A stretch of 64,000 nucleotides of DNA. It comes from a virus. The notes beneath the pieces were generated by a model, which saw nothing but the letters and a program-made list of their open reading frames with translations, was not told the origin of the DNA and ran no database searches. Both the position numbers and the translations under genes were made by a program. Below are positions 40,203-64,000 of the stretch, in pieces. Positions within the stretch are counted from its first letter, which is position 1; every line of letters starts with the position of its first letter. Location: positions 1 to 64,000 of IMG/VR virus record IMGVR_UViG_3300031857_000055, one strand, 5' to 3'.

Positions 40203-40508
40203 ATGGATACTAAAACCTTAATTACCGAAGCAAAAGCTCGTTTTGCTCACAACTCAGCAAAAGATTATCTAAAAGAAAAGTACAATGCAAAGCTATTAGT
40301 AGCAGAGCAGGGTGGTCTATGGCGTGCTGACAAAGAAACTATCTCTTTCTTAACAGCATTCTTGAATGAAGAAGTCGTTCTCATGGATACGTTTGACAAT
40401 CCAGTAAAGGTTAATAGACAAGACCTTAAAGACAAGTTGTGTGAAACTTATTATAGAGTGATGAACGAATGGCACAATGAGTGGAAAGAGCTTGAAAGTA
40501 AGAGATAA
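40203..40508 (+). CDS. Hypothetical small phage protein (101 aa)
   Basis: TAGGAG lies 6 nt before the ATG. Mostly helical and charged: an N-terminal K-T-L-I-T-E-A-K-A-R-F helix, a G-G-L-W-R-A-D turn, and a C-terminal helix with W-H-N-E-W-K-E-L. No signal peptide, membrane segment or catalytic motif was seen. First gene after the likely terminator, so it heads the accessory transcript. Function unknown. Confidence 0.6.
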   Translation: MDTKTLITEAKARFAHNSAKDYLKEKYNAKLLVAEQGGLWRADKETISFLTAFLNEEVVLMDTFDNPVKVNRQDLKDKLCETYYRVMNEWHNEWKELESKR

Positions 40509-40509
40509 C

Positions 40510-40683
40510 ATGACCGAACTGGTATACGATTCAGATAACGGCATCATCGCATTAGCATTACAAATGTACGTTCACTACGCTACTGAAATGGGCGGCGATC
40601 AGCATTTGATTGACAGAGCAGGTGAACTAGAGTTTATCTTTAAGAATAAACCTACAACAGAAAGATACGAGTGGCCAGAATGA
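40510..40683 (+). CDS. Hypothetical small phage protein (57 aa)
   Basis: ATG 40510 is preferred over an upstream in-frame alternative inside the previous gene; it follows that stop codon by one base. An acidic N-terminus (E-L-V-Y-D-S-D-N-G) leads into a helix (A-L-A-L-Q-M-Y-V-H-Y) and a C-terminal E-R-Y-E-W-P-E. Its TGA overlaps the next ATG. Function unknown. Confidence 0.55.
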   Translation: MTELVYDSDNGIIALALQMYVHYATEMGGDQHLIDRAGELEFIFKNKPTTERYEWPE

Positions 40684-41486
40684 CTCGTGGCGTAATACTA
40701 TTTGCCTTTAATAGTCCCAAATACAATTACTATGATATGGCTAAACATACTGCAAAGCGTGTTGAGCATTTCTTAAAGTTGCCTGTTACGTTAGTAACAG
40801 ATGACGATTCTATGCCTAAAGACGAGTACGAACTTTGGGATAAAGTAATAAAAATCAAACCGGACAAGAATAACTTTCGTGACTGGGGTATGTGGATCAA
40901 TAAGGGCCGCTATATGGCATATGAATTAAGCCCGTATGACGAGTCACTATTGTTGGATGTAGACTATATCATCAACTCAAACAAACTACTAACCTTATTT
41001 GATATTGACACAGACTTTTGCTGCCACAATAGAACTAATTTCTTAATGAATGTTGGTGCAGCACAAGAACTACTAAGCGCATATAGTTATGAAACACTAT
41101 GGGCTACTGTTGTGAAGTTCCGCAAGTCTAATCGTGCAGAACAAATTTTTAAATGTTTAGAAATGGTACAAAAGAACTATGAACACTACGCCAACATTCA
41201 TAATTTTATCGCCCCTGTATATCGTAACGATTATGCTCTTACTCTCGCCCTTCGCATTGCTAACGGCCATAGTAGTGATTCCCGCGATGTTATTCCTTGG
41301 GATTTATTGCACGTTGGAAAAAACACGCAAGTTTATCGTGATGGTGATGACCAGCTCGGCACAGAGTATACGGTCATGTTTGACAACTGGCAACGGGGCA
41401 AAATAAGAAAAGAGTATATCACAATCAAAGACCAAGACTTCCACGTGATGGATAAAGAAATATACGTGGAGATGATTAATGAATAA
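40680..41486 (+). CDS. GT-A-like glycosyltransferase
   Basis: 268 aa from ATG 40680, overlapping the previous stop (ATGA). The N-terminus has a Rossmann-like strand-helix (G-V-I-L-F-A-F-N-S-P) and P-V-T-L-V-T-D-D, as in nucleotide-diphospho-sugar transferases. L-L-L-D-V-D-Y at about residues 90-96 has a D-x-D metal and nucleotide-sugar motif. The C-terminal half has F-N-S/N-x-G-like loops (N-F-L-M-N-V-G) and many aromatic residues. It is the first of three GT-A-like genes in a row. Sugar and acceptor cannot be read. Confidence 0.6.
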   Translation: MTRGVILFAFNSPKYNYYDMAKHTAKRVEHFLKLPVTLVTDDDSMPKDEYELWDKVIKIKPDKNNFRDWGMWINKGRYMAYELSPYDESLLLDVDYIINSNKLLTLFDIDTDFCCHNRTNFLMNVGAAQELLSAYSYETLWATVVKFRKSNRAEQIFKCLEMVQKNYEHYANIHNFIAPVYRNDYALTLALRIANGHSSDSRDVIPWDLLHVGKNTQVYRDGDDQLGTEYTVMFDNWQRGKIRKEYITIKDQDFHVMDKEIYVEMINE

Positions 41487-42237
41487 AGGCTTTGTCATTA
41501 TGGCGCAGGGACTTGACTATGAAGTTTGCGCCGATGTTCTTAAGGATAGCATATTAAATGTGATGCCTGATGCTAACGTAACAATCATTACTACTGATAT
41601 GCTTCCATATGGCGATCAAGCTCCCGACACTGATTGGAAGCTACAGAATGATTGGCAAGTATACGAAGCAAGCCCTTACGAGTATACTATCAAGCTTGAA
41701 GCTGATATGTATTTGCCAAGGTCAATTGAATATTGGTGGGATGTACTACAGAATAGAGACTTAGTAGTAAGCACTACAATCAGAAACTTCAAGCAAGAAA
41801 TATCGGATATCAAAGCATATCGTAGATTCATTACTGACAACAATCTACCTGATACTTATAACGCTATTACGTATTTCCGCAAGAGTGAATTAGCAGAAAA
41901 GTTCTTCAATATTGTGCGTGACGTATTTGAGAATTGGGCTGAGTATAAATCTGTTCTCAAGTGTAACGTTGATGAGATTTGTACTACAGACTGGGCTTAT
42001 GCTATCGCTGCACACATCCTGGGTGAAGAGAATACTACGCTACCTCAATTCAAAGAAATGTCAATGATTCACATGAAGCAATTCATTAATGGTTGTCCTA
42101 CAGAGAAATGGACAGACAATTTGATTTATGAGAAGCTTCCGCACACTTTCAGAATCAATACTATTCCGCAATTGTATCCATTACACTACCATGTAAAAAG
42201 CTTAGCCAAAGAAATCAAGGGGAATAACAATGGATGA
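41479..42237 (+). CDS. GT-A-like glycosyltransferase
   Basis: 252 aa. The start overlaps the previous gene by 8 nt and GGAG lies just upstream. F-V-I-M-A-Q-G near the N-terminus, then N-V-T-I-I-T-T-D, then K-L-E-A-D-M-Y-L-P at about 72-80, in which E-A-D takes the place of D-x-D. N-A-I-T-Y-F-R-K-S-E at about 127-136 resembles the acceptor-side loop of GT8-like enzymes. C-terminal H-M-K-Q and Y-P-L-H-Y-H-V-K give late histidines. Related in layout to its upstream neighbour, probably an old duplication. Enzyme class is likely; specificity is unknown. Confidence 0.6.
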   Translation: MNKGFVIMAQGLDYEVCADVLKDSILNVMPDANVTIITTDMLPYGDQAPDTDWKLQNDWQVYEASPYEYTIKLEADMYLPRSIEYWWDVLQNRDLVVSTTIRNFKQEISDIKAYRRFITDNNLPDTYNAITYFRKSELAEKFFNIVRDVFENWAEYKSVLKCNVDEICTTDWAYAIAAHILGEENTTLPQFKEMSMIHMKQFINGCPTEKWTDNLIYEKLPHTFRINTIPQLYPLHYHVKSLAKEIKGNNNG

Positions 42238-42550
42238 AGTAATTGTTATTTGGGAAAGTCAGAAGGTTGACAAGCCAGAGTTTAGGCTGTATTATGATGA
42301 CAAGGGCTGTGTTATTAACTACACATGTGAACCTCATGAGGGTAACTATATTGTTATTGATGCCCTAACATTTGCTGAGGCTAGACCCGACATTAAAGTT
42401 ATTGACGGGAAGATCATTAAAAATCATTTTGGTTCAGTGATGAGTAAACTATGCAAAGACACTGAGGGTGTTCTTTGTGAGGTTGAAGACATAAGCATTA
42501 TCACTGAAACTGACGGACAACATTGGAAATTAAAAACTTATGAATTATGA
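42230..42550 (+). CDS. Hypothetical protein (106 aa)
   Basis: AAGGGG lies 9 nt before the ATG and the start overlaps the previous gene by 8 nt. Strand-rich: E-V-I-V-I-W-E-S, F-R-L-Y-Y-D-D, then Y-I-V-I-D-A-L-T-F and K-V-I-D-G-K-I-I. No enzyme motif. Embedded between glycosyltransferases and overlapping the next gene by 11 nt, so translated with them. Function unknown. Confidence 0.55.
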   Translation: MDEVIVIWESQKVDKPEFRLYYDDKGCVINYTCEPHEGNYIVIDALTFAEARPDIKVIDGKIIKNHFGSVMSKLCKDTEGVLCEVEDISIITETDGQHWKLKTYEL

Positions 42551-43490
42551 TGACATTGTAGATATCGCAGACCTAGACTGCATCTATCTAAGCTATGACG
42601 AACCTCAGAAAGAAGAATTCTGGATCAAGATTAAGAACATGGTTCCGTGGGCTAAGCGAGTAGACGGAGTTAAGGGTAGTGATGCTGCACACAAGGCAGC
42701 AGGAGAAGCAAGTGAGACAGAACGTTTCATTCTCATTGACGGCGACAACATGCCGGACGAAGACTTCTTCAATCTACAGTTAGACTTTACAGGATTAGAT
42801 GAAAACTACAAGTTAGCGCAATATCGTTGGAGAGCGGTCAACGCAATCAACGGTCTGCGTTATGGCAACGGCGGTATGAGTTCTTGGACTAAGACTTATG
42901 TTGCCAACATGAAGACCCATGAGACAAGTGACGGAAGTGATACAACAGCGGTTGATTTCTGCATGGATTCTTCAGATAATCTATACTGGGCAATGCACGA
43001 TTGCTACTCTACAACGTATCCTAACTACACTCCCTTCCAAGCGTGGAGAGCAGGATTCCGTGAAGGTGTCAAGATGGTGCTTGATCGGGGTGCAAAGCCC
43101 AGTATAGACGAATTTCGTGAACGAGTTGCTGGACGCAATCTAAACAATCTTACTATTTGGCATAACGTTGGCGCAGATGTAGAGAATGGTCTTTGGGCTA
43201 TCTATGGTGCAAGATTAGGCACGCATATGACCATGCTTACTGATTGGAATTATCGTGATGTTGCAGACTTTGACAACTACCCTGCATTGTGGGACAAATA
43301 TAAGCACAACAATCCAGTCCTTAGTGCTGGGTTTATCGGAGAAGAACTTGAGAGTAAGTTAGGATTACCAATGTGTACTCTTGATGCTGAACAGTCTAAG
43401 TTCTTCAAGCGCCACTATAATTCAGACAAGTATAACATGGGTCCTCTCGTTAAGGAGATGGACGTAATCCGCAGAATTGAAGGATGGTAA
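42540..43490 (+). CDS. Glycosyltransferase-like protein
   Basis: 316 aa. R-F-I-L-I-D-G-D-N-M-P-D at about 62-73 is the D-x-D-type motif of GT-A enzymes. Y-G-N-G-G-M-S-S-W-T-K at about 107-117 resembles the G-G-[NGM] substrate loop. The N-terminal D-C-I-Y-L-S-Y-D-E-P fits the start of a Rossmann-type sugar-nucleotide fold. The second half is helical with many Trp and Tyr. Overlaps its upstream neighbour by 11 nt and the next gene by one base. Confidence 0.6.
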   Translation: MNYDDIVDIADLDCIYLSYDEPQKEEFWIKIKNMVPWAKRVDGVKGSDAAHKAAGEASETERFILIDGDNMPDEDFFNLQLDFTGLDENYKLAQYRWRAVNAINGLRYGNGGMSSWTKTYVANMKTHETSDGSDTTAVDFCMDSSDNLYWAMHDCYSTTYPNYTPFQAWRAGFREGVKMVLDRGAKPSIDEFRERVAGRNLNNLTIWHNVGADVENGLWAIYGARLGTHMTMLTDWNYRDVADFDNYPALWDKYKHNNPVLSAGFIGEELESKLGLPMCTLDAEQSKFFKRHYNSDKYNMGPLVKEMDVIRRIEGW

Positions 43491-44887
43491 TGTCAGAATC
43501 AGAAACAGACAGAATTAAAAGAATCCGCGACTTTATTGATGTGAACACTACGCCTACATTCTGTTTGGCTAAGTGGCAGCATGTCACAATGTATCTACAG
43601 TCGGGTGAGACACACTCTTGCTATCACCCAAAGCCGCACAAGATTCCATTAGCTGAGTTAAAAGATAACCCAAGTGCATTGCATAATACGATGCACAAGA
43701 AGCTTGAGCGTAAAGAAATGCTTGAGGGGAAGAAGCCAGAAGGCTGTCAATATTGCTGGAACATTGAAGAAATGGGCCCTGACTATATCAGCGACAGACA
43801 TATTCGCAACGCAAGTATTTTTACAAAGGAACGCTATGAACAAGCCAGTAAGGGAGCCTGGGACCAAAACATCAACCCAGAGTATTTGGAAATTAATTTT
43901 GGTAACGAGTGTAATTTTAAATGCGGCTATTGCCATCCGAAATATAGTACAAGATTCTACAAAGAAATAGAAGACTTCGGTCCTGTTGAGAACGTAAAGA
44001 ATCATCGCTGCGATGTTGACTGGATGAAGCTATTTCAACGTGAAGAAGAAAACCCGTATGTTGATGCTTTCTGGGAATGGTGGCCTGAGCTACGCAAGAC
44101 ACTAAACATCATGCGTGTTACCGGTGGCGAACCCACACTGCACAAGTCAACATGGACACTGTTAGATAAGATTGATGAAGACCCAATGCCCTGGCTTGAG
44201 CTTAACATCAATAGCAATCTCGGCACTAAGAATATTCTTATTGATCGCCTTGCCGTCAAAGTAAAGAAGCTGGTAGACGAAAAGAAAATTCGTGCATTCA
44301 AGCTGTTTACAAGCATGGACACATGGGGTGAACGTGCTGAGTATATTCGCACTGGTCTTGAATTAGAGCTATGGGAAAAGAATTTTCACACCTATGTTCA
44401 AAAGAGTGAAAGCCCCATCACATTCATGATCACGTTCAACATCTTCTCAGTGACGAGCTTCAAGAGCTTGCTTGAGAAGTTCTTAGAGTGGCGCAGACAA
44501 TATGGCTGGGATGAAGAACGCAAGCAGCATATCATTCGCTTTGACACGCCGTATCTACGTGAGCCTATTCAATACGATATGAACATTCTTCCTAAGGAAC
44601 AGTTCATGCCCTACATGTACGAGTCATTGAAGTTTATGGAAGACAACTTAGATGACACTCGTGCAGACGCCTTCAGCACAATTGAATATGAAAAGTTCAA
44701 ACGAGTTGTTGACTATATGGCAGAAACAGTGTATAGTGAAGACAAGCTAATTGAAGGTCGCAGAGATTTCTATAATTGGTTTAATGAATTGGATGATCGT
44801 CGTGAGAATGATTTGTTGACTGTCTTCCCAGAAATGATGGATTTTTATAAATTATGTCAACAAGTAAATTTGACGAACCCTCTCTGA
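43490..44887 (+). CDS. Radical SAM protein with N-terminal twitch-like Cys domain
   Basis: 465 aa from ATG 43490, which overlaps the previous stop and has GAAGGA 6 nt upstream; an ATG at 43484 is too close to that site. The N-terminus has F-C-L-A-K-W-Q-H and then a Cys (S-C-Y-H-P), followed by G-C-Q-Y-C, a cysteine layout like a SPASM/twitch domain placed before the core. The radical SAM motif C-N-F-K-C-G-Y-C gives C141, C145 and C148, and T-G-G-E-P-T follows. Such enzymes cleave S-adenosylmethionine to start radical chemistry. The substrate is unknown. It overlaps the next small gene by 34 nt. Confidence 0.75.
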   Translation: MSESETDRIKRIRDFIDVNTTPTFCLAKWQHVTMYLQSGETHSCYHPKPHKIPLAELKDNPSALHNTMHKKLERKEMLEGKKPEGCQYCWNIEEMGPDYISDRHIRNASIFTKERYEQASKGAWDQNINPEYLEINFGNECNFKCGYCHPKYSTRFYKEIEDFGPVENVKNHRCDVDWMKLFQREEENPYVDAFWEWWPELRKTLNIMRVTGGEPTLHKSTWTLLDKIDEDPMPWLELNINSNLGTKNILIDRLAVKVKKLVDEKKIRAFKLFTSMDTWGERAEYIRTGLELELWEKNFHTYVQKSESPITFMITFNIFSVTSFKSLLEKFLEWRRQYGWDEERKQHIIRFDTPYLREPIQYDMNILPKEQFMPYMYESLKFMEDNLDDTRADAFSTIEYEKFKRVVDYMAETVYSEDKLIEGRRDFYNWFNELDDRRENDLLTVFPEMMDFYKLCQQVNLTNPL

Positions 44888-45114
44888 GAAATAGAAAATG
44901 GGAGTGCATTGGTATGGATATGCCTAGCCAAAATGCCGTATATAATATCCGTGCGCAAGAAATCAGAGATTGGATTGAAGAACAACCGACAGTCATGTGG
45001 GCGCAGTATGGTATAGATGAGATTTACGAGGGTAAACCTATATCTGCAATGTTTGGGCAGAACTATGTCTTTACAGAAGAAATGGAGGCGTGGTTCACGT
45101 TAAGATGGGTATGA
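44854..45114 (+). CDS. Small hypothetical protein (86 aa) between radical SAM genes
   Basis: Starts 34 nt inside the preceding gene; an internal start would shorten it. The stop (TGA 45112-45114) overlaps the ATG of the next radical SAM gene (ATGA). It has several Trp (K-W-E-C-I-G, M-W-A-Q-Y-G) and ends E-A-W-F-T-L-R-W-V, a hydrophobic ending I have seen in small phage proteins. It could be a partner or substrate of the adjacent radical SAM enzymes, but nothing in it proves this. Confidence 0.5.
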   Translation: MSTSKFDEPSLRNRKWECIGMDMPSQNAVYNIRAQEIRDWIEEQPTVMWAQYGIDEIYEGKPISAMFGQNYVFTEEMEAWFTLRWV

Positions 45115-46373
45115 ATTTAACAGATAAAGCAAAGAATAGCAAAACTTTTTGTGTGTATCCCTGGATACACATTCATACCAGTCCAATGGGAGCTATTGCA
45201 CCATGCTGCATAGGGGCGTCGGTGTCAAACACCGATTTAGCCGACGAAGTAAAAGGAAAACGTCTTGATGATTTAGTAAATCATGACAGAATCAAGCAGT
45301 TACGGTTAGACATGCTTGCAGGAAAAAAATGTAGTGAATGTAAAATCTGTTATGAATTAGAAGATGCAGGGGTTGATAGTTTTAGAGTAACGGGCTTGAG
45401 AGAATATCCTGAGGTCGCTGAGGAATTAGTAACTGACACTAATATAGATGGATCACTGTCTAATTTTGAAATGCGTTATTTTGATATGCGCTTTAGTAAC
45501 ATTTGTAACTTCAAGTGTAGAACTTGCGGTCAAGAATATAGCAGTCAGTGGGAACAAGAAAATCTACGAAACAACGTATCATATGCAAGGATGTTTTCTA
45601 AAGGTGCCGAAACTGAATTACTTGAAGATGTGTTAGAACAAGTACCCAACTTTGAAACTGCGTATTTTGCAGGCGGTGAACCTCTGATTACCGAAGAACA
45701 TTATATTATCCTAGAAGAAATGATTCGTAAAGGTAAGACTGATGTGGCATTGCGGTATAATACTAACATGAGCAATATTAAATTCAAGAACAAGGATTTA
45801 ATGTCTCTTTGGAAAAACTTTAAACATGTTAATGTATCTGCGAGTATTGATCATTACGGTGAGAGAGCAGAATATATTAGGCATGGTACTAACTGGTCAG
45901 TTGTAGAAGAAAACTTAAAGATAGCTAAAGAATCAGCCGTGGTTAACTTATCCTTAAATACTGTTCTGAGCGTGTTTAACTTTTTTACCATTGACTCTTT
46001 TTACAAGTATATGCACCACGCTAACATCTATACTAAAAATAGTCCGGAATCAACATTATACTGCATGACCTCGCCTGATCACCTGGCATGTCATTGGTTG
46101 AATCCAGAACATAAACTTATAGGGAATGAGAGCTTAAGTAGAGCAATAAATTTTATGGAACAAGAAAATTTCCGAGAAGGTCACATCCGACATATCAAAG
46201 CAGCATTAAATTGGTCGTGCTCCAAAGACACTTCTGATAACATAGACGGGAGTGGTTATACTAACGCTATCAATTTCAGAAATTCTATTGAGGAACTAGA
46301 CAAGATCAGGGGAGAATCATTTGAGAAGGTATTTCCTGAATTGATTCCAATATTGGAATCTACATATGAATAA
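45111..46373 (+). CDS. Radical SAM protein with N-terminal SPASM/twitch-like domain
   Basis: 420 aa. ATG 45111 is chosen because it overlaps the previous stop as ATGA and because the first cysteine then falls at C14, exactly as in the paralogue at 46366. N-terminal domain: C14, P-W-I-H, P-x-G, P-C-C (C32, C33), then C-S-E-C further on. Core: C132, C136 and C139 in C-N-F-K-C-R-T-C, then Y-F-A-G-G-E-P-L. The order (auxiliary Cys domain first, then core) is reversed relative to standard SPASM proteins, in which the extra domain is C-terminal. The third-codon positions look more A/T-rich than in its neighbours. Substrate unknown. Confidence 0.78.
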   Translation: MNLTDKAKNSKTFCVYPWIHIHTSPMGAIAPCCIGASVSNTDLADEVKGKRLDDLVNHDRIKQLRLDMLAGKKCSECKICYELEDAGVDSFRVTGLREYPEVAEELVTDTNIDGSLSNFEMRYFDMRFSNICNFKCRTCGQEYSSQWEQENLRNNVSYARMFSKGAETELLEDVLEQVPNFETAYFAGGEPLITEEHYIILEEMIRKGKTDVALRYNTNMSNIKFKNKDLMSLWKNFKHVNVSASIDHYGERAEYIRHGTNWSVVEENLKIAKESAVVNLSLNTVLSVFNFFTIDSFYKYMHHANIYTKNSPESTLYCMTSPDHLACHWLNPEHKLIGNESLSRAINFMEQENFREGHIRHIKAALNWSCSKDTSDNIDGSGYTNAINFRNSIEELDKIRGESFEKVFPELIPILESTYE

Positions 46374-47595
46374 AGACTTTCTCTTAAACGATAGCAAGAC
46401 ATTTTGCATGTTCCCGTGGGTGCATTTAAATGCGACGCCTAAGGGTGACGTATATCCTTGCTGTAGTAATGACTATACAGACCCAGTTGGTAACACTAAG
46501 AATAATTCATTAGAAGAAATCTTTAACAGTCCAAAGATGAAAGAATTACGCTTGGATATGTTAAACGAGCGTAAAAATAAGATTTGCGACTTCTGCTATA
46601 AGCACGAAGAAGCTGGCCCGTATAGTTTCCGTAACTATAGCAAAGAACACTTTGGCAAATACTTTGATGAAATTGTACCCACCACACAAGATGATGGTAC
46701 TGTTGACGAATTCAAGATGAGATATTTTGATATCAGATTTAGTAACATTTGTAACTTTAAGTGCAGAACCTGTGGGTCAGAGTTTAGCTCTAAGTGGGGC
46801 GAAGAAATGCGCAAGAACTACGACCCTAATCATCCCGTGTTAATTCACGTTGATGATAATCGTGGCACAGTTCTTGATGAAGTGTTAGAGCATATTGAAC
46901 ATATTGATCTTGCATACTTTGCGGGCGGCGAACCACTCATCACTGATGAGCATTATACTATGCTTGAGGCAATGATTCGTAAGGGCCGCACTGACATTAC
47001 TCTACGCTATAACACAAATGCAAGCAATATCAAGTATAAAAAGCATGATGTACTTGATTTATGGAAGCATTTTAAAAAGATTGAACTAAGCTGTAGCATT
47101 GATCACTATGGCGAACGTGCTGAGTATATGCGTAAAGGAACAGACTGGGGAGTTGTAGAAAGCAATTTACTTACATTCCGTGAATTGGATTATGTTATCT
47201 TTCAGATGAATACTGTTTTCAGTATCTACAACTACCTCACTATCGGAGACTTTTATCAATATCTTAAGGATAAGAACATCGTGAGAACAGAAGATTGGTA
47301 TCATTCGCTCTATCTTGCCGTACATCCTAATTATTATTGTGCTAAAAGTCTCCCTAAAGAATTAAAAACAGTAGCAGGTGAAAAAGCATTAGCCTGGGCT
47401 AACGCTAATATGGACGACAAGACTTGTGTACCAAGACTCGTGGTAGATGCAGTGAACTTTGCGAACGATACCGATCAGTGGGGCGAAGTCAGAGACAAGT
47501 TCTTGATGCATACTAAGTCAGTTGACAGAATTAGAGGCGAAAACTTCTGGGAAACCTTCCCCGAATTAAATAGATTACAGGATTTATATGAATGA
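46366..47595 (+). CDS. Radical SAM protein with N-terminal SPASM/twitch-like domain, paralogue
   Basis: 409 aa, overlapping the upstream gene by 8 nt. The N-terminal domain matches its neighbour position by position: C14, P-W-V-H, P-K-G, P-C-C (C32, C33), then N-S-L-E-E-I-F-N-S and C74/C77, a typical SPASM-type string. Core: C129, C133 and C136, then Y-F-A-G-G-E-P-L-I-T. Further similarity runs through I-R-K-G-R-T-D, R-Y-N-T-N and S-I-D-H-Y-G-E-R-A-E-Y. A tandem duplication with the gene at 45111 is clear. The stop overlaps the ATG of a 40-residue frame. Confidence 0.78.
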   Translation: MNKDFLLNDSKTFCMFPWVHLNATPKGDVYPCCSNDYTDPVGNTKNNSLEEIFNSPKMKELRLDMLNERKNKICDFCYKHEEAGPYSFRNYSKEHFGKYFDEIVPTTQDDGTVDEFKMRYFDIRFSNICNFKCRTCGSEFSSKWGEEMRKNYDPNHPVLIHVDDNRGTVLDEVLEHIEHIDLAYFAGGEPLITDEHYTMLEAMIRKGRTDITLRYNTNASNIKYKKHDVLDLWKHFKKIELSCSIDHYGERAEYMRKGTDWGVVESNLLTFRELDYVIFQMNTVFSIYNYLTIGDFYQYLKDKNIVRTEDWYHSLYLAVHPNYYCAKSLPKELKTVAGEKALAWANANMDDKTCVPRLVVDAVNFANDTDQWGEVRDKFLMHTKSVDRIRGENFWETFPELNRLQDLYE

Positions 47596-47714
47596 ACGAA
47601 AAGAAGTACTGTCCCCCATTATCATTGACCACTCAGTGGGAATTTTGGGCTTGGATTTATAATATGAAGCGAAATGACAGTGCAAGGTTCAAGAAGAAGA
47701 AACAGTATGATTGA
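47592..47714 (+). CDS. Tiny reading frame (40 aa) between radical SAM genes
   Basis: Starts with ATGA overlap and its stop overlaps the start of the next gene, the coupling seen throughout the operon. It carries one Cys (K-K-Y-C-P-P), an aromatic stretch (W-E-F-W-A-W-I-Y) and a Lys-rich end. It may be a translational link, a remnant or a small peptide. Coding status is uncertain. Confidence 0.35.
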   Translation: MNEKKYCPPLSLTTQWEFWAWIYNMKRNDSARFKKKKQYD

Positions 47715-56086: not shown

Positions 56087-57183
56087 TTATAAATCAAGAC
56101 AACATATTATATTACGGAAACAGCGGCCCCGAACTTAGACTACAAAGTTCATTGTTTAATATCAGAGACTTCAGTGATACAGACTATTGGTATATTGATT
56201 TCTTTCACGGTGAAGCACTTAAGGATGTGCATCAACATCTTCCCGAAGATGTACTGAATCGAATTCGTTTGGGTAGCGTTACATTAATATTGAACAATAG
56301 TCACGAAGCATACCATGATGTTGTAGAATATATCTATTTGTATTTGGTAGATGGTCTTAGTATTCCGGCTCAGCACATTACACTATTGAGTGAGAGTGCT
56401 ATTATTAATGAAGAAGTCAAGACAATTGCTAATAAGTATAATCTACCTGAAATAAAAACTGAGTGGCTTAGAATATTTGAACACAACATTCATGTTGCTA
56501 CTACCAAAACATTGAACACACTACAAGAAAAAGAATACACTAAAAAGTTTCTGAATCTAAATCGCAGATGGAGACCGCACAGGCCATTGTTTGTGGCATT
56601 GCTCAAGATTAATGACCTATTAGATCAGGGTTATGTGAGTATGGCTCCAGCAGATGACAATCAAGATTGGGAGAGAGCGTGGGACATGATTTCATATCTA
56701 GAGCCTGACTTGATCCCGCATAAAGATAATCTTGCTACTATTCCTGATTTATATCTGGATACTCGTGAAATGCATATCAATCAAGTGGCGTTGACTGACA
56801 GCACCGATCAATATTATCTTGACTCATATTTCAGCATTGTATCAGAGACAAACTTCTATAAAGAATATGGCCCAGGATTGTTTCTTAGCGAAAAGGTATT
56901 CAAGCCTGTCAGCAGAAGGCATCCTTTCTTAGTATTAGCTCGTCCACATACTATCAAGAAATTCAACGAGCTTGGCTATCGTAGCTTTAGCGAAATAATT
57001 GATGAGTCATACGATAATGAGTTTGATGACCGCAAACGAATGATGATGGTTCTTGAAGAAACTAAACGTCTCTGCAACCTAACAGTTGATGAGTTGAAAC
57101 ATTTCTTAAAGGTGGCAAGAGAGATAACACTACACAACTACCTACTACTCAGAAACAAAAGAAACTTTATTACAAAATTATGA
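56083..57183 (+). CDS. Glycosyltransferase-like protein of the T/S-E-K-x-F-K family (copy 3)
   Basis: 366 aa, with ATGA overlap. L-N-R-R-W-R-P-H-R-P at about 164-173, V-S-E-T-N-F-Y, S-E-K-V-F-K-P-V-S-R-R-H-P-F-L at about 269-283, G-Y-R-S-F and D-E-S-Y-D align in order with copies 1 and 4. The N-terminal half shares little with the other copies, as expected if it binds the acceptor. Function inferred only by family resemblance. Confidence 0.6.
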   Translation: MIINQDNILYYGNSGPELRLQSSLFNIRDFSDTDYWYIDFFHGEALKDVHQHLPEDVLNRIRLGSVTLILNNSHEAYHDVVEYIYLYLVDGLSIPAQHITLLSESAIINEEVKTIANKYNLPEIKTEWLRIFEHNIHVATTKTLNTLQEKEYTKKFLNLNRRWRPHRPLFVALLKINDLLDQGYVSMAPADDNQDWERAWDMISYLEPDLIPHKDNLATIPDLYLDTREMHINQVALTDSTDQYYLDSYFSIVSETNFYKEYGPGLFLSEKVFKPVSRRHPFLVLARPHTIKKFNELGYRSFSEIIDESYDNEFDDRKRMMMVLEETKRLCNLTVDELKHFLKVAREITLHNYLLLRNKRNFITKL

Positions 57184-57959
57184 ACCTAGATTTAACAAAA
57201 TACAAGAGGCTGTTTACATTTGGATGTAGCTTTACAAACTACAGATTTCCTACCTGGGCGCATATACTTAGTAAGTCTATGCCTGACTGTGAGTTTCATA
57301 ACTTAGGCAGAGGCAGCGGAGGCAACCTGTTCATTGCAAATAGAATCACTGAGGCTAATAAGAAGTTCAAGTTCTGTGAGACTGATTTGGTTATAGTAAT
57401 GTGGTCTACGTTATGCAGAGAAGATAGATTTGTAAACGACAATTGGGTATTGGCTGGCAACATCTTTACGCAAGGGTATTACGATGACAAGTTTGTAAAG
57501 AAGTTTTGTGATCCAGTTGGTTATCTTATTAGAGATTTATCCTTGATTGAATTGTCTAAAACATATCTGAACAGTTTGCTATGTGACAACTATATGATGC
57601 TGAGCGTTCCATTCACTAATCAGATTGTGGAAGAAACAAAGACTACAACTGATGTATTAGCAACATACCGGGATCTTATCAATAGTTTCCCTGCATCAAT
57701 GTTTGAGCTTGAAATGAATAATTCGTGGACTAACGATGTGATTTATAGAATGTCTGATGGTCAAGTTCAAGTAGATTATCATCCGACTCCAATGAACTAC
57801 TATAACTATTTGACCAAGCTCGGCTTTGCTCTAAATGAGGATAGTAAGTTATATGCATTGGAAAGCGACAAGACATATAGGACCGTAGAATCCATTGAGC
57901 AACTACAAGCATTATTCTATGAGGAGTATGACTTCTTCACTACAAAAAACATGTGGTGA
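57180..57959 (+). CDS. SGNH-hydrolase-like protein, tandem copy A
   Basis: 259 aa, with ATGA overlap with the preceding gene. F-G-C-S-F-T at 14-19 (Ser17), N-L-G-R-G-S-G-G-N (about 41-49) and Y-H-P-T-P (His about 201) are the SGNH-type blocks. It shares R-F-V-N-D-N-W, D-P-V-G-Y-L-I-R-D and the whole N-terminal layout with the next gene, so the two arose by duplication. Possible esterase or acyltransferase of the glycan pathway. Confidence 0.6.
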   Translation: MNLDLTKYKRLFTFGCSFTNYRFPTWAHILSKSMPDCEFHNLGRGSGGNLFIANRITEANKKFKFCETDLVIVMWSTLCREDRFVNDNWVLAGNIFTQGYYDDKFVKKFCDPVGYLIRDLSLIELSKTYLNSLLCDNYMMLSVPFTNQIVEETKTTTDVLATYRDLINSFPASMFELEMNNSWTNDVIYRMSDGQVQVDYHPTPMNYYNYLTKLGFALNEDSKLYALESDKTYRTVESIEQLQALFYEEYDFFTTKNMW

Positions 57960-57982: not shown

Positions 57983-58780
57983 ATGTTAGATTTAAGCAAA
58001 TATCGTCGTTTTTTCGCATTTGGCTGTAGCTTTACATCATACAAGACACCGACCTGGGCTGATATCGTAGCTAAAGAAATGCCAAATGCAGAGTATTATA
58101 ATTTTGGACAAGGCGGTGGCGGCAATCTATTCATCAACAATCGTGTAGCTCAAGCTAATTTAAAATATAGTTTCAATGAACATGATTTGGTTATGATCAT
58201 GTTTACTACCGTATGCAGAGAAGATCGCTTTCTTAATGGTAGGTGGGAGTCGCACGGAAATGTATTTAATCAATCTTTTTACAGTAAAGAATTCGTAAAG
58301 AACTATTGCGATCCGGTTGGCTATCTTGTTAGAGATGCTGCACTAATTGAGATGACTACGGGTTATGTGACAAATTTGCCATGCACTACGAAATTTTTGT
58401 CAATGGTTGACCTATCACTGGAAGCTGGGTTATTAACTGAAACTGCAAGCATAAACAGTGACCGTGCTGCTGTTACTAAGATAAAAAAAATATATCGTGA
58501 TAAAATGAAATTTCCGGCAGTAATCAATAATGGAGAAGTCAGTTTCAAAGGCGTAGAACTTATTGATAAATTTGGTAAGTTATTTAAAGACGGTCATCCA
58601 CTGGCTGACGATTATGCAGAGTTCTTACATAGCATTAACTTCCCTATCACTGAGCGGGGACTATCATATGTTGAAGAAGCGATGACTAAACTAAAAAATG
58701 CAAAAACCTGGGACGATGTTAGAGCATCATTTCCAGACATAAGGCAGCATCAAGAATATAGAAACAGAAGCGTAATTTAA
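57983..58780 (+). CDS. SGNH-hydrolase-like protein, tandem copy B
   Basis: 265 aa, paralogue of the previous gene. F-G-C-S-F-T at 13-18 (Ser16), F-G-Q-G-G-G-G-N, F-L-N-G-R-W, D-P-V-G-Y-L-V-R-D and D-G-H-P-L-A-D-D-Y (His about 205). It is separated from copy A by 23 bp, one of the few non-overlapping junctions in the operon. The C-terminal 50 residues are helical and unlike copy A. Confidence 0.6.
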   Translation: MLDLSKYRRFFAFGCSFTSYKTPTWADIVAKEMPNAEYYNFGQGGGGNLFINNRVAQANLKYSFNEHDLVMIMFTTVCREDRFLNGRWESHGNVFNQSFYSKEFVKNYCDPVGYLVRDAALIEMTTGYVTNLPCTTKFLSMVDLSLEAGLLTETASINSDRAAVTKIKKIYRDKMKFPAVINNGEVSFKGVELIDKFGKLFKDGHPLADDYAEFLHSINFPITERGLSYVEEAMTKLKNAKTWDDVRASFPDIRQHQEYRNRSVI

Positions 58781-58792
58781 TAGGAAAAATAT

Positions 58793-59983
58793 ATGAACAA
58801 AGTAGCAATGATCGGCGTTGGCAAACTAGGACAAGATTGCGCCGAAGTTATGGCAACAAAGTATGATGTTGTGGGGTACGATATTGAGCCTAGAAACCCC
58901 GGCTTTCCAATGCGAGATACGATTAAAGAAGCAGTTGAAGATAGAGACATTATCTTTATTGCTGCGCCTACTCCACATGACCCAATGTATGGGGGAGAAA
59001 CTCCCACGAGTCATTTACCTAATAAAGATTTTGACTATACGATTGTCTCAGAAATCTTGGATGAGGTTAACAAGTATACCAATCAGAATCAATTAGTAGT
59101 TTTGATTAGCACTGTGTTGCCTGGCACTGTACGTAATATCTTAAGACCTAAAATCACTAACGCACGATTTATCTATAACCCATATCTTATTGCTATGGGT
59201 ACAATCAAGTACGATATGGTTAATCCTGAAATGATTATCATTGGTACAGAAGATGGTACTGCCACAGAAGATGCATTAGAATTAGTTAATTTCTATGTGC
59301 CATTAATGCAGAACAATCCACGATATGAATTGGGCACCTGGGAAGAAGCAGAGTCAATTAAAATCTTCTACAACACCTTTATTAGCACGAAAGTTGCATT
59401 AGTCAATATGATTCAGGATGTTGCCGAACGCAGCGGTAATATGTGTGTTGACGTTGTAACTGGAGCACTAGAACGTTCTACGCAGCGTATTTTGGGTCCG
59501 GCATATATGAAGGCTGGTATGGGAGACGGCGGCGCATGTCACCCTCGTGACAATATCGCATTGAGATATCTTGCTGAGAAGCTTGACTTAGGGTATGATC
59601 TATTTGATAGTATCATGCGGGCACGAGAAGTGCAAGCAGAAAATATGGCTAAAGCATTGTTGAAGTATGGTAAGAACGTAACCATCATCGGCAAGGCATA
59701 TAAGCCAGGAGTGCATTACACAAACGGTAGCTCAAGTATGCTGGTTGGATACTATGTTGAACAACATGGTGGAAACATCAACTACTATGATGAACACACT
59801 GGCGACTTAGATTTGGCCGAAGATTGGACTGAAGTCTATCTGATCGGTTACTGGGATGACTATGTAGAGGAATTAAAGTTCAGTGATGAGAACATTGCGA
59901 CTGTAGTTGATCCCTGGCGCAGATGGACAACTGATAGATGTTCAGGTCACGTAGTACATTATGGTAACTCTAGGAAGCAATAA
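58793..59983 (+). CDS. UDP-glucose/GDP-mannose dehydrogenase-like enzyme
   Basis: 396 aa; AGGAAA lies about 7 nt before the ATG. The NAD-binding G-V-G-K-L-G is at 8-13. The catalytic cysteine loop is G-G-A-C249-H-P-R-D, as in enzymes that oxidise UDP-glucose, UDP-ManNAc or GDP-mannose to the uronic acid. A C-terminal K-A-Y-K-P-G-V block follows at about 302-308. The family is usually 390-450 residues, so the gene is full length. Which nucleotide sugar it uses cannot be told. With the epimerase and aminotransferase it forms a sugar-nucleotide set. Confidence 0.8.
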   Translation: MNKVAMIGVGKLGQDCAEVMATKYDVVGYDIEPRNPGFPMRDTIKEAVEDRDIIFIAAPTPHDPMYGGETPTSHLPNKDFDYTIVSEILDEVNKYTNQNQLVVLISTVLPGTVRNILRPKITNARFIYNPYLIAMGTIKYDMVNPEMIIIGTEDGTATEDALELVNFYVPLMQNNPRYELGTWEEAESIKIFYNTFISTKVALVNMIQDVAERSGNMCVDVVTGALERSTQRILGPAYMKAGMGDGGACHPRDNIALRYLAEKLDLGYDLFDSIMRAREVQAENMAKALLKYGKNVTIIGKAYKPGVHYTNGSSSMLVGYYVEQHGGNINYYDEHTGDLDLAEDWTEVYLIGYWDDYVEELKFSDENIATVVDPWRRWTTDRCSGHVVHYGNSRKQ

Positions 59984-61140
59984 TGGATCTGTCAAAACAT
60001 GATGCATATAGATATCCGGAATATGATGACTACATGAAATTGCTTTGGCAAAATTATTGGCCAAATAACATTCATCTATTTGATAAAGTAAGACACATCT
60101 ATGCCGGTGCCCATGCATCTATGAGTTTCAAATGGAGACCAATCGAATCTATTATTGAAGAAATAAAAGATTTCTATCAATCAGGCATAAGAATATTTTT
60201 CTTTGAATGCTTGACTGAGGGTGTTATCATTGATGGCATTGAAAAGATTGCTAAGGTAGCACTACACTTTTCAAACTTTCCCGATATCAAATTATTCTAT
60301 TGGTCAGGAGATTACACAGCAGAAAAACATGTTAACAAGCATTTAGGTAGTATAGGCATACCTAAAAAGTTCGCTGTAATCGGTACCAGTCACCTAGAAC
60401 TAACGGGCAAAACATATCCGCCATATGATAAAGATTATGCCGTTGGACCTAGAGAAAAGAAGTTTCTATGCTTTAACAAAGTCCATCGCCAGCATAGAAT
60501 TGACTTATTAGAGTACGTAGTTACTAACAATCTATTGGATGATAGCTATTATTCATTTGATTGTAGCGAAGATAATTTAGAACTATTAGTTAACGATATC
60601 AACTATCCGGGCATTAGATCAATAAAAGATCGTATCCCACTAATATTGAACAAAACACCGGAACGTGATAATCCGGTCAATATCATTGAAGACGATCACA
60701 AATATTTTGAAAACACATATTTTAGTGTAGTAACCGAAACGTTATTCTATCGTGACCCCATAGCACCTAAGCAAAGATTAATGATGCATGTTCCCGGAAC
60801 TTATCCCGGAAGATTCGTTACTGAGAAAACATTTAAGTGTATTGTAATGAAGCACCCCTTTGTTGTTTTGGGTCCATATAAGATGTTAGAGTTCATGAAG
60901 TCAAGGGGTTATAAAACTTTCAGCCCTTTTATTGATGAGAGTTATGACGATATTGAGAACGATGACGAAAGATTACTTGCTGTCGGTAACGAAATTAAAA
61001 GACTATGTAATCTAAGCGAAGACGAATTGGTAAGATTCACCGAGTTTGCTAAACCTATCGTAGAACACAATGAGAATGTTGTTCGCAATGTTACCGATTT
61101 CACTACTATTAATAATTTAGGCGACTATATAACTGTGTAA
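59983..61140 (+). CDS. Glycosyltransferase-like protein of the T/S-E-K-x-F-K family (copy 4)
   Basis: 385 aa, with TAATG overlap. F-N-K-V-H-R-Q-H-R-I-D-L (about 165-176), V-T-E-T-L-F-Y, T-E-K-T-F-K-C-I-V-M-K-H-P-F-V (about 281-295), G-Y-K-T-F and D-E-S-Y-D match copies 1 and 3, with Cys in place of the usual Pro after the Lys. Between the T-E-T-L-F-Y and T-E-K blocks it has a 20-residue insertion absent from the others. Function inferred as for copy 1. Confidence 0.6.
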   Translation: MDLSKHDAYRYPEYDDYMKLLWQNYWPNNIHLFDKVRHIYAGAHASMSFKWRPIESIIEEIKDFYQSGIRIFFFECLTEGVIIDGIEKIAKVALHFSNFPDIKLFYWSGDYTAEKHVNKHLGSIGIPKKFAVIGTSHLELTGKTYPPYDKDYAVGPREKKFLCFNKVHRQHRIDLLEYVVTNNLLDDSYYSFDCSEDNLELLVNDINYPGIRSIKDRIPLILNKTPERDNPVNIIEDDHKYFENTYFSVVTETLFYRDPIAPKQRLMMHVPGTYPGRFVTEKTFKCIVMKHPFVVLGPYKMLEFMKSRGYKTFSPFIDESYDDIENDDERLLAVGNEIKRLCNLSEDELVRFTEFAKPIVEHNENVVRNVTDFTTINNLGDYITV

Positions 61141-61143
61141 ATA
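61136..61143 (+). promoter_or_regulatory. Late-promoter-like variant TGTAAATA
   Basis: TGTAAATA differs from TATAAATA at one position and lies 23 bp before the TTG start at 61167, in one of the few gaps of the operon. It overlaps the end of the upstream gene. Confidence 0.35.
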
Positions 61144-61166
61144 CTACACGATATAGGGAGCAACAC

Positions 61167-63431
61167 TTGGATTTTAATCTAAAATCACTGGCTAAAAAAG
61201 AATTAAAGCCTAATGAAAGACCAACTGAGGACGTTGGTGATCTTCGTCACCGCAGCATGATGGAAGCAATTGCTCCTTATGCTAAAGACGTTGTGGTCAA
61301 TGCAAAGAATTTGACACCGGTCTACGTAGATTATAAGACCCGTGATACTAAGATGGTTCTTGTATTATGTCCGGAATGGAGCCCATACATGCCTCCGTTC
61401 AGTCTTGCAAGACTGAGTGGTGTTGCAAAGGCTTCTGGGTATGAGACACATATCATGGATTTAAACGTTAAGGCTTATAACGCATACCGTGATGATTGGC
61501 AACCTAACAACAAGCTACCATTTAGATTGTGGGACCCATCAAGCTCATGGCACTGGCTAGGTGACACTTACATGAATGATATTCATCCTGTACTTGAGCC
61601 TATTCTAAGCGCAGCAGTAGATGAAATCATTGAAATGAATCCTCAAGTTGTTGGGTTCAGCGTGTATTATATCAGTGAGGAACCCACTAAGTGGATGGCT
61701 CAAGAAATTAAGAGACGCAATCCAAACATTCTCATTGCAGTTGGTGGCCCTAACGTACACAAGAGCTGGTTTGATATTCGTCCTTACTATGATTATATCA
61801 TCGTAGGCGAAGGTGAGCAGAATCTACTCGTAATGCTTGATGAAATTGAAGAAGGCAAGCGCCCTTTTCCTGGTCAGCCCAGAGTGCTGACACAGCCTGA
61901 GAATCAACGTATCAACATCAATGGTCTGCCTATGCCAGACTATGAATCAATTGACTTCTCACTATACGAAGTGCCTAATGGCGTCAACAGTGAGATTAGC
62001 CGCGGCTGTACTGCTAAGTGTACGTTCTGTGAAGAAACACACTTTTGGAAGTATCGTCAACGTCAAGCAGTTGACTTAATCACCGAAGTTGAATGGCTAT
62101 ACTATAACAAGGGCACCGACGTTATTTGGTTCATTGATAGTCTTATCAACGGCAACATCAACGAGCTTAGAGCGTTTGCACTTGCACTAAAAGAGAAGGG
62201 ACTTAAGGTTCGCTTTACTGGATATGCCAGACACGACGGTAGAATGACATTAGAATATCTACAAGACTTAGCTGACGGTGGATGCATCATGTTCAATTTC
62301 GGATGTGAATCAGCATCGCAGAAAGTACTTGACGATATGCACAAGGGCGTTACTATTGCAGAAATGGAGCAGAACTTCATTGACTGCAAGAAGGTAGGTA
62401 TTTGGTGCGCTACTAACTGGATTGTTGCATTCCCCACAGAAGACTTCCAAGACTATAGCGACACCATGACGTTTATGTGGCGTATGCGTAACAACAATGT
62501 TAACAATATGGGATTGGGAGTAGGATATGGATTAGGCCCCGAAACAATCGTGGGGCAGAATCCACACGCATATAATATCAGCTTCCATAAGTATCAGGGA
62601 CACTGGATCAGTAAAGACTTAGCAATGGGCGGACCTCATGTCATGACTCGTGTTAAGAATATTCATATTTGGCTGGACTTCTTTAAAAATTGTACAGATG
62701 TTCCGATTGGCTACCCTATTAGGCATAATCTAGAAAAAGAACATTATAAGATTAAACTCAATAACCCAAATCTACAGAAAGAAATGGCATATGAAAAGTT
62801 TGACTATAACATCATTCCTCCCTTAGGAGATAACAATCCTTTTGCCAATCAGTTAGTCAATGAAATGTGGCCCTTCTTTAGAAATCTGTGGAGAGCTAGG
62901 GGAGGTTACGAAGCAGAAATTTACTTCAACCCTGAGATAGACTTGAAAGAGTTCGGAACTCAGTATGGTCCAGGTCAGTACTGGGCAACGTTTAAGTTCA
63001 AGATTACTGATGAGGGTCAATGGAACGCTCACTTCAATATCAAGTTTGAACAGGTTGACAATCCTCTAGATGATCGTGAACGTCCACCCGAAGGTCGTAA
63101 GGGTCCTTTCTATGCGCAGGACTATTCACGATTGCAATCCAATACAGTAAAGAGAGCCAGAAAGCTTGCTAAGCCTACTTGGAGTAATCAAGAAGGTAGA
63201 TCAGGACAAGACTTTGCTGACTTGCTTGACGAAGAAGCATATTTGAACGCTACCATTGACTTTAGCTTTCACTTAGATTGGCAGGGTTCAGGTGACTGGA
63301 GCGATCATGAAAAGTATCGTGTTGATGTAAGTAGCACATCACGAGACATTATTCCAGAAAAGGAAAGTGACACCGGATCAGATATTGTGTCTAGTATTTC
63401 ATTGGATAGTATAAGGCGTAAACCAAAATGA
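61167..63431 (+). CDS. B12-binding-type radical SAM protein with extra C-terminal domain
   Basis: 754 aa from TTG 61167, chosen because GGGAG (61156-61160) lies 6 nt upstream and no nearby ATG fits. About 60-240 is the cobalamin-binding-type Rossmann domain (V-L-V-L-C-P-E-W, V-G-F-S-V-Y-Y, A-V-G-G-P-N, V-G-E-G-E-Q-N), again without a visible D-x-H-x-x-G. Core C281, C285 and C288 in R-G-C-T-A-K-C-T-F-C, then F-G-C-E-S-A-S. The last 180 residues form a strand-rich region with an acidic, Ser-rich tail, not part of the usual family. Stop overlaps the next ATG. Confidence 0.78.
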   Translation: MDFNLKSLAKKELKPNERPTEDVGDLRHRSMMEAIAPYAKDVVVNAKNLTPVYVDYKTRDTKMVLVLCPEWSPYMPPFSLARLSGVAKASGYETHIMDLNVKAYNAYRDDWQPNNKLPFRLWDPSSSWHWLGDTYMNDIHPVLEPILSAAVDEIIEMNPQVVGFSVYYISEEPTKWMAQEIKRRNPNILIAVGGPNVHKSWFDIRPYYDYIIVGEGEQNLLVMLDEIEEGKRPFPGQPRVLTQPENQRININGLPMPDYESIDFSLYEVPNGVNSEISRGCTAKCTFCEETHFWKYRQRQAVDLITEVEWLYYNKGTDVIWFIDSLINGNINELRAFALALKEKGLKVRFTGYARHDGRMTLEYLQDLADGGCIMFNFGCESASQKVLDDMHKGVTIAEMEQNFIDCKKVGIWCATNWIVAFPTEDFQDYSDTMTFMWRMRNNNVNNMGLGVGYGLGPETIVGQNPHAYNISFHKYQGHWISKDLAMGGPHVMTRVKNIHIWLDFFKNCTDVPIGYPIRHNLEKEHYKIKLNNPNLQKEMAYEKFDYNIIPPLGDNNPFANQLVNEMWPFFRNLWRARGGYEAEIYFNPEIDLKEFGTQYGPGQYWATFKFKITDEGQWNAHFNIKFEQVDNPLDDRERPPEGRKGPFYAQDYSRLQSNTVKRARKLAKPTWSNQEGRSGQDFADLLDEEAYLNATIDFSFHLDWQGSGDWSDHEKYRVDVSSTSRDIIPEKESDTGSDIVSSISLDSIRRKPK

Positions 63432-64000
63432 ATGATATAGTTGATAAGTTTGAAAAGCTGATTGCTAATTTTTATGGTGCACCATATGCAGTAGCAACAG
63501 ATTGCTGCACTCATGCCATTGAGTTGTGCTTGCGAATTGAAAAGCCGGAATATCCTATCAACTGCCCTACTAGAACTTACATAAGCGTACCCATGACATT
63601 CATGAAACTTGGAATGGAGTGGCAGTTTGACGATTATGATTGGGAAAATTACTATCACATAGGATGCACGAGCATCATTGATGCCGCAGTGTATTGGAAA
63701 CCTCGCGGGTATGTTCCTGGCTCAAAAATGTGTCTCAGCTTTCAGCACAAGAAACATTTGAGTTTGGGTCGCGGGGGCATGATCTTATTAGACAACTATG
63801 ATGATTATGTAACTCTCAAAAAAATGAGCTATGATGGAAGAATCCCTAACACACCTTGGGCAGAACAAGACATTGATACTGTCGGCTATCACTATTACAT
63901 GACTCCCGAAACCGCACAGACAGGCATCTATCGTTTTTGTGCAGCAGAAGTAAAAGAACCTCGTAAATGGTCATCACAAGATTATCCTGACCTATCAACA
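63428..64000 (+). CDS. DegT/DnrJ/EryC1/StrS-type aminotransferase (partial)
   Basis: 191 codons to the right edge, with ATGA overlap at the start. F-Y-G-A-P-Y-A-V-A-T-D-C-C-T-H-A-I at about 14-30 matches the cofactor-phosphate loop. I-I-D-A-A supplies the PLP-contacting Asp. S-F-Q-H-K-K109-H-L-S-L-G-R-G-G-M matches the Schiff-base lysine block. These enzymes put an amino group on a keto-sugar nucleotide. The distance from start to lysine (109) is shorter than in typical members (about 180), so this is a compact variant. The C-terminal half is outside the window. Confidence 0.72.
   Translation, partial: MNDIVDKFEKLIANFYGAPYAVATDCCTHAIELCLRIEKPEYPINCPTRTYISVPMTFMKLGMEWQFDDYDWENYYHIGCTSIIDAAVYWKPRGYVPGSKMCLSFQHKKHLSLGRGGMILLDNYDDYVTLKKMSYDGRIPNTPWAEQDIDTVGYHYYMTPETAQTGIYRFCAAEVKEPRKWSSQDYPDLST

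Follow-up and report, generated by a model that had tools for sequence, protein, structure and literature searches.

The window analysed here, positions 1–64,000 of the 106,541-base IMG/VR virus record IMGVR_UViG_3300031857_000055 (classed as linear; the rest of the record was also analysed), carries behind its tail-fibre genes an operon of about 35 kb in which glycan genes are interleaved with seven genes for radical S-adenosylmethionine (rSAM) enzymes. The operon starts at 40671 on the plus strand and ends at about 75901 of the record, i.e. about 12 kb beyond the window. Its gene order is conserved in many other viral contigs, and two sets of three genes behave as nearly all-or-none cassettes. 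We consider it likely that the operon encodes a glycan pathway of some kind. Our preferred reading, held tentatively and at somewhat less than even confidence, is more specific: a soluble pathway of glycan assembly and tailoring, part of the tail-fibre block in large T4-like phages, that would decorate their virion adhesins.

Every gene class listed in a preliminary description of this DNA was found on the plus strand between 40671 and 64000; the tail-block genes named below lie on the same strand. The limits given there were shifted at both ends: g101 (40203–40508), a small conserved protein, separates the tail genes from the operon, which continues past the window to about 75901. Beyond position 64000 follow, in order, the end of a DegT-type aminotransferase gene (64018), a PRMT-like methyltransferase, an amidinotransferase, a fusion of a 2-oxoglutarate (2OG) oxygenase with TEK5, SGNH4, a carbamoyltransferase and a repeat protein of 1,996 amino acids. 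Open reading frames (ORFs) were called mechanically. At most of the operon's 27 junctions the genes overlap or lie within 26 nt of each other, the exceptions being two gaps of 78 and 107 nt. The proposal that glycan and rSAM genes here form one operon is supported.

The gene set recurs in other phages. Loci were taken from viral contigs by similarity to the operon's proteins (80 for B12b, 22 for B12a and 79 for the twitch enzymes, the three sets sharing contigs), and their frequencies are not population estimates. The same genes come back across all three sets, and neighbours are strongly linked in relatives rather than scattered. Because gene set and order are conserved in so many other viral contigs, chance is excluded. 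Of 47 loci extending from B12b as far as the carbamoyltransferase, 26 have the complete trio of DegT, amidinotransferase and 2OG-TEK, 20 lack it and one has part of it; after clustering at 95% B12b identity the figures were 18, 16 and one. With the same clustering, SDR, SGNH1 and B12a were all present in 14 clusters, all missing in 24 and partly present in three. Both trios are thus nearly all-or-none cassettes. A core is nearly constant: where a B12b locus extends to tw1 (32 cases), three or four twitch genes and rS5 are present in all but one, L102, whose stretch shows one twitch gene and lacks rS5.

Pfam PF04055 identified exactly seven rSAM domains in the whole record, all inside the operon, in agreement with the number first reported and with its division into five enzymes lacking a B12-type domain and two possessing one: PF02310 is matched, besides PF04055, only by B12a (54116–56086) and B12b (61167–63431). 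Four of the other five, tw1 (43484–44887; CNFKCGYC), tw2 (45090–46373; CNFKCRTC), tw3 (46366–47595; CNFKCRTC) and tw4 (47674–48984; CNMKCRSC), score 311, 358, 379 and 362 bits, respectively, against a cut-off of 170 bits for NF033640 (twitch domain-containing radical SAM). The fifth, rS5 (48969–49931; CNFRCSYC), matches PF04055 with 29.8 bits and stays under the NF033640 cut-off (33.8 bits); its Cys 259, 278, 301, 306 and 308 are invariant in 48 sequences. The CX3CX2C motif is retained in all adequately covered relatives of tw1 (50/50), tw2 (13/13), tw3 (50/50), tw4 (52/52), rS5 (55/55), B12a (54/54) and B12b (82/82). Seven cysteines, 14, 33, 74, 77, 129, 133 and 136 in the numbering of tw3, are invariant in 36 twitch sequences and correspond to an N-terminal four-cysteine auxiliary site (the first four) plus CX3CX2C. 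In a tree of the twitch proteins, 22 of 23 tw1 sequences grouped together (support 1.0), as did all 23 of tw4 (0.97), tw3 mostly and tw2 less clearly; the clade labels had been assigned by BLAST to the window's proteins, which makes this test partly circular. The separate clades suggest distinct steps rather than recent duplicates. A fusion of an rSAM protein with GTa3 in locus L087 may be an effect of ORF calling or assembly and was not used. The small ORF between tw1 and tw2 (hyp86, 44854–45114) is poorly conserved, with one relative.

The unusual chemistry anticipated from the number of rSAM genes agrees with the nearest solved relatives of two enzymes. B12a, a cobalamin-dependent enzyme, is closest to the C-methylases TokK (E=3e-82) and CysS (E=4e-52), which transfer a methyl group onto carbon; it resembles them and may work in the same way, a proposal based on this similarity and not on its score for the KedN5 family. 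For the amidinotransferase, the best match is the streptomycin enzyme StrB1 (1bwd; E=2e-65), and its D166, H214 and C320 residues, invariant in 32 sequences, align with the catalytic residues of 1bwd.

Glycosyltransferases (GTs) of two folds appear to be involved. The three GT-A-like enzymes of the preliminary description are present: GTa1 (40671–41486; DVD motif), the conserved first gene in 54 loci, GTa2 (41479–42237; phrog_1903, of unknown function), the conserved second gene, and GTa3 (42540–43490; DGDN motif), found in 70 of the 79 twitch loci. GTa1 and GTa2 are read as GT-A-like by motif, since neither has a Pfam or NCBIfam match. Between GTa2 and GTa3 lies hyp106 (42230–42550), a small protein of close relatives only, 51–61% identical in jumbo-phage relatives.

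The four proteins first described by a T/S-E-K-x-x-K motif, TEK1 (49931–51259), TEK2 (52232–53299), TEK3 (56083–57183) and TEK4 (59983–61140), could be given a more precise assignment. They have no Pfam match, and profile and sequence searches returned nothing meaningful from the PDB. An AlphaFold2 model of the family built with 53 members, TEK3 being the protein modelled, reached a pLDDT of 93.3 and a pTM of 0.91. Its top solved matches in Foldseek are GT-B enzymes, namely SdgB, GtfA and OtsA/trehalose-6-phosphate synthases (E 7e-5 to 1e-3, best 6.9e-5; TM 0.35–0.45), and the top match among predicted viral structures is a phage protein of 788 amino acids annotated as UDP-glucose 6-dehydrogenase (UGDH). 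We therefore predict that TEK proteins are GT-B glycosyltransferases with two Rossmann-like domains, the model and Foldseek covering TEK1 and family alignments TEK2. ORFs that fuse TEK to other enzymes of the operon were found in the loci: UGDH+TEK in 12 cases, across eight clusters at 95% B12b identity, SGNH+TEK in three and TEK+SDR in one. TEK4 belongs to the genes fused to UGDH in relatives, and TEK5 of this very operon is joined to a 2OG-oxygenase-like domain. Fusions of UGDH, SGNH and SDR with TEK form a pattern typical of glycan pathways.

The repeat protein (69911–75901 of the record) begins with about 20 FDFSWxPDPxxPPYIYxFGxQW units, after which come segments resembling GT-A and, at the C terminus, a homologue of GTa3; in its longer relatives the FDFSWxPDP motif occurs in 7–27 copies. 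Its structural model was of low confidence (pTM 0.42) with weak GT-A matches (best E 3e-3), and we do not build on it.

Enzymes for the supply and tailoring of sugars complete the set. SDR (51219–52232; PF01370, 152 bits) is an NAD-dependent sugar epimerase/dehydratase of the short-chain dehydrogenase/reductase type, and UGDH (58793–59983; phrog_9148, 335 bits; PF00984/PF03721) a nucleotide-sugar 6-dehydrogenase whose catalytic Cys249 is retained in at least 97% of 40 sequences. SGNH1 (53296–54162; GCSW and AHPT motifs; no Pfam match) is an SGNH-like hydrolase or acyltransferase and SGNH2 (57180–57959; GCSFT) and SGNH3 (57983–58780; GCSFT; relatives present) are SGNH-like proteins, all by their motifs; S11, N76 and H265 of SGNH1 are invariant in 35 sequences, and the profile family of SGNH2 occurs in 48 of the 79 twitch loci. 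The DegT aminotransferase (63428–64018; PF01041, 47.8 bits) had been listed before; it is a complete mini-protein of 196 amino acids and not one truncated by the window end. This pyridoxal phosphate (PLP) enzyme is half the size of the two-domain fold of about 370 amino acids, its relatives have 192–240 amino acids, and its matches end well before the C-terminal half of the family; the PLP residues D85 and K109 are invariant in 34 sequences. Related mini-DegT proteins occur in the cyanophage S-SCSM2R, in two huge uncultured phages (595 and 642 kb) and in Flavobacterium phage immuto, with annotated GT genes around them in S-SCSM2R and immuto and SDR/UGDH-type genes nearby in one of the huge phages. 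The carbamoyltransferase is of the NodU/TobZ type (Carbam_trans_N, 117.9 bits; Carbam_trans_C, 161.4 bits), with novobiocin, GdmN and TobZ relatives. Elsewhere in the record (85949–87944), near the thymidylate synthase gene, the genes for an SDR epimerase and for a DegT aminotransferase of full length overlap; this further sugar pair is conserved in relatives.

The position of the operon is fixed. Upstream of g101 lies a tail block comprising v206 (34700–35320), a conserved virion-region gene (phrog_11259, 231.9 bits) with 41–100% identity at the same place in relatives, v746 (35334–37574), a virion structural protein with 28% serine plus threonine (S+T; phrog_14394), v412 (37945–39183), a tail-fibre-like protein with a C-terminal Peptidase_G2 intramolecular chaperone (PF11962, 30.6 bits; phrog_14394), and v317 (39199–40152), the end of the block, with 26% S+T, 2% lysine plus arginine (K+R) and no Pfam or PHROG match. 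In all 52 loci with sequence upstream of GTa1, some of them near-duplicates of one another, GTa1 is preceded by g101, and 49 of these also have v317, v412, v206 or v746. The order g101-GTa1-GTa2-GTa3-twitch behind tail-fibre genes persists down to 38% twitch identity. On the far side of the operon, the jumbo relatives have a MoxR-VWA-TS block. The S+T content of v746, v412 and v317 is 23–28%, versus 16–19% in other virion-block proteins, and 45 diverse relatives of v317 average 25% S+T and 4% K+R. We regard v317 as a candidate glycan acceptor. For an acceptor among the virion proteins in general, our estimate is a little under even odds.

The following scheme is proposed for the pathway. Activated sugars would be supplied by UGDH and SDR, with the second SDR/DegT pair contributing from elsewhere in the genome, and a glycan would be built from them by the GT-A-like GTa1–3 and the GT-B-type TEK1–5. 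The twitch enzymes and rS5 might then oxidize, epimerize or dehydrate unactivated carbons, and the TokK-like B12a, perhaps also B12b, would add methyl groups to carbon. An amine introduced by the mini-DegT could be converted into a guanidine by the StrB1-like amidinotransferase; carbamoyl groups would come from the carbamoyltransferase, and SGNH proteins may trim or add acyl groups. The product would most likely be placed onto the phage's own Ser/Thr-rich neighbours v412 and v317, where it could alter host binding or help the phage to avoid capture. A narrower version of virion decoration, in which a near-constant core (rS5, B12b and three or four twitch enzymes), together with methylation and guanidine cassettes that can be exchanged, makes a tail-fibre glycan or sugar-protein foreign to cellular life, is possible and appears to us rather doubtful.

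What the sequences show is the gene content, the intact active-site motifs, a predicted GT-B fold, gene fusions, a constant linkage to tail genes, the behaviour of the cassettes and a lack of clear membrane proteins; the substrates, the order of steps, the acceptor and the biological role are inferred from these. Several points weigh against the explanation. Tail fibres are often rich in Ser and Thr, and enzymes that change the host receptor could equally be linked to tail genes. B12a reaches 246 bits for the KedN5-family model NF033712 (cut-off 700) and B12b 103.8 bits for TIGR03975, a model of C-methyltransferases acting on ribosomally synthesized and post-translationally modified peptides (RiPPs; cut-off 281.85). 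The twitch enzymes need not act on sugars, because their bacterial neighbourhoods are mixed and indicate no single substrate, with adjoining proline racemases in Nitratireductor, for example. Finally, the C-terminal domain of the repeat protein, which has DGDA-type motifs in distant relatives, reads FAKL in this clade; with the DxD gone, it may no longer be catalytic and could now serve as a scaffold.

The most serious alternative, possible and yet on the unlikely side, is that the same enzymes remodel the O-antigen of host lipopolysaccharide (LPS) or another surface glycan, thereby blocking competing phages or the rebinding of progeny (superinfection exclusion). Their location next to the tail fibre would then reflect the joint evolution of receptor binding and receptor change. 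This explanation accounts equally well for tail linkage and for the swapping of cassettes, and tail linkage alone does not separate a virion from a host-surface target. In a study of pelagimyophages (PMC7029224), it is the published reading for the GTs of a host recognition cluster, and UDP-glucose 6-dehydrogenase is counted among LPS-type phage genes. However, domain searches of the operon's proteins revealed no flippase, polymerase, ligase or prenyl-phosphate transferase. No operon protein exceeds a mean hydropathy of 1.55 over 19 residues, i.e. none has a clear membrane segment, and all of them look soluble. With no export genes in the operon, the host machinery would have to export the product, and a complex new glycan would be slow to assemble within a lytic cycle. 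Further parts of a pathway may lie in the missing portion of the genome, the record being 106.5 kb and relatives up to 364 kb. We favour virion decoration over host-surface change because the proteins appear soluble, no export or polymerization gene was found, and the operon always follows the Ser/Thr-rich tail proteins.

Peptide maturation is the best-known role of twitch and SPASM rSAM enzymes. The rSAM enzymes might modify a protein or peptide (by C-methyl, thioether, epimer or cross-link) on a tail protein, the repeat protein or a small peptide, with the glycan genes providing a second layer. The closeness of B12b to the RiPP model (104 bits, under the cut-off) and the large repeat protein with its 7–27 repeats in the same operon of close relatives speak for this explanation, and distant loci that keep the rSAM core without repeats speak against it. 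A RiPP precursor within the operon was considered and rejected: among genes that mostly overlap, with gaps of 78 and 107 nt, there is no fitting small ORF and no intergenic room for one. Nor was a peptidase, transporter or leader-binding gene seen. We regard protein or peptide modification as improbable.

Glycosylation of DNA occurs in T4-like phages, and UGDH/SDR pathways can supply sugars. A sugar-type hypermodification of the phage DNA, comparable with the glucosyl- or arabinosyl-hydroxymethylcytosine of other T4-like phages, is nevertheless very unlikely, as some ten glycosyltransferase-type proteins and the tail linkage exceed what DNA glycosylation needs. In addition, the thymidylate synthase homologue retains the Asn of true thymidylate synthases (FNIASY; L009, 2587–3429), so that no dCMP hydroxymethylase is seen within the 106.5-kb record, from which much of the genome is missing. 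Least credible of all is a loose collection of passenger genes without joint function, for which varying gene content and cassettes that come and go might be cited, against strict order and linkage at low identity, all-or-none cassettes, fusions, overlapping genes and intact active-site motifs.

The record itself very likely covers just part of the genome of a jumbo phage, because operon-bearing relatives reach 335–364 kb and have terminases 36–97% identical to its own; its terminase large subunit is 49–51% identical to those of T4-like jumbo phages. Upstream of the tail block, an ORF of 6,548 amino acids (14892–34538), with about 44–51% identity in most jumbo relatives compared, is a giant virion/tail protein. 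Rfam and tRNA scans gave no matches. The T4 late promoter core TATAAATA occurs once in the window, both strands counted, versus 6.05 expected (standard deviation 2.3), which does not inform on timing; its scarcity could possibly reflect avoidance or a different late promoter.

As regards distribution, all close relatives of B12b that were found come from viral contigs (188 matches); a scan of 84,980 prokaryote genomes, built from peptide patterns of one protein and able to detect close relatives only, returned none. With the twitch profile, matches were obtained in at least 597 stretches of viral DNA and in 54 of genome contigs. Seven loci in bacterial bins of metagenome-assembled genomes (MAGs; L137–L140, L142, L161 and L162, e.g. 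Rhodobacteraceae NAT686 and a Pelagibacter MAG) have the phage gene order and are likely phage contigs binned in MAGs. In two Bdellovibrionia MAGs (L149 and L150), a twitch rSAM gene is clustered with two more rSAM genes, one like rS5 and one twitch-like, and with genes for a methyltransferase and a carbamoyltransferase; this is possibly a cellular relative of part of the phage set. In a phage collection, a DNA search with the whole operon and tblastn with the repeat protein, GTa3, g101, v317 and TEK1 gave no match; hence that collection yielded no cultured phage that has the full core. The cultured jumbo Vibrio phage K566 encodes five twitch rSAM proteins at 161548–178915, with a PagP homologue nearby and no GTa, TEK or UGDH match.

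Reports of rSAM-rich regions in large phages go back to 2010, without a function being assigned. To these can now be added a defined gene order, a near-constant core, two exchangeable cassettes (guanidine and C-methyl) and a tail-fibre location, which makes it a testable question which protein or glycan is modified. If the product is carried by virion proteins, adhesin decoration by radical chemistry would be demonstrated for phages; if it is carried by the host surface, the operon would represent a new route to superinfection exclusion. For enzymologists, B12b, rS5, the DegT of half length and TEK, which lacks a Pfam match and is predicted to be a GT-B family, are families awaiting assignment of a substrate.

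No known pathway matches the operon as a whole; the description of it as an undescribed system nevertheless holds only in part, since related phage rSAM genes were published in 2010 (a multi-rSAM module), 2017 (a viral genome) and 2020 (cassettes with GTs). A search of the open literature, with subscription papers and preprints outside its range, found no demonstrated function for such phage sets. Timms et al. (2010; PMC2853527) described an interchangeable module of five rSAM genes and an amidinotransferase in Campylobacter phages CP220 and CPt10, and CP220 also encodes two proteins of nucleotide-diphospho-sugar transferase fold. Unlike the enzymes studied here, the rSAM proteins of CP220 match the twitch/rS5 profiles weakly (E 1e-7 to 1e-14), and no match to GTa, TEK, SGNH, UGDH, DegT, carbamoyltransferase or B12 rSAM profiles was found. 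The marine T4-like viral genome TARA_ERS488813_N000010, with 12 rSAM genes discussed for Fe–S cluster assembly (2017; PMC5332604), is similar in its wealth of rSAM genes.

Individual parts of the operon also have known counterparts. Synechococcus phage S-SCSM2R (PQ898602) has, in one run, a mini-DegT (55% identical), an amidinotransferase (56%), a homologue of the 2OG-oxygenase-like part of TEK5 as a separate gene annotated 2OG-Fe(II) oxygenase, an rSAM gene and GTs; it differs in that this rSAM gene is the only one in the run, which is without the full NF033640-like twitch set and without TEK, UGDH and B12b matches. StrB1, the nearest solved relative of the amidinotransferase, shares its catalytic Asp, His and Cys, whereas the phage enzyme sits in a GT operon. 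TokK and CysS are the nearest solved relatives of B12a, from which the low KedN5-family score sets it apart.

Also among the nearest systems is the tail-fibre 'host recognition cluster' of pelagimyophages and cyanomyophages (2020; PMC7029224), for which modification of the O-chain was favoured. As described there, it likewise occupies the T4-like tail-fibre variable region and contains GTs, a UDP-glucose dehydrogenase and rSAM cassettes, and the operon reported here is in the same manner adjacent to tail-fibre genes and combines GTs with such cassettes. In contrast with that description, the order GTa1-GTa2-GTa3-twitch is fixed here in widely differing phages, the rSAM enzymes number seven, two of them of B12 type, and guanidine and carbamoyl chemistry is added. 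What appears to be new is the size of the operon, its fixed order, the logic of its cassettes, the assignment of TEK proteins to the GT-B glycosyltransferases and the identities of its enzymes.

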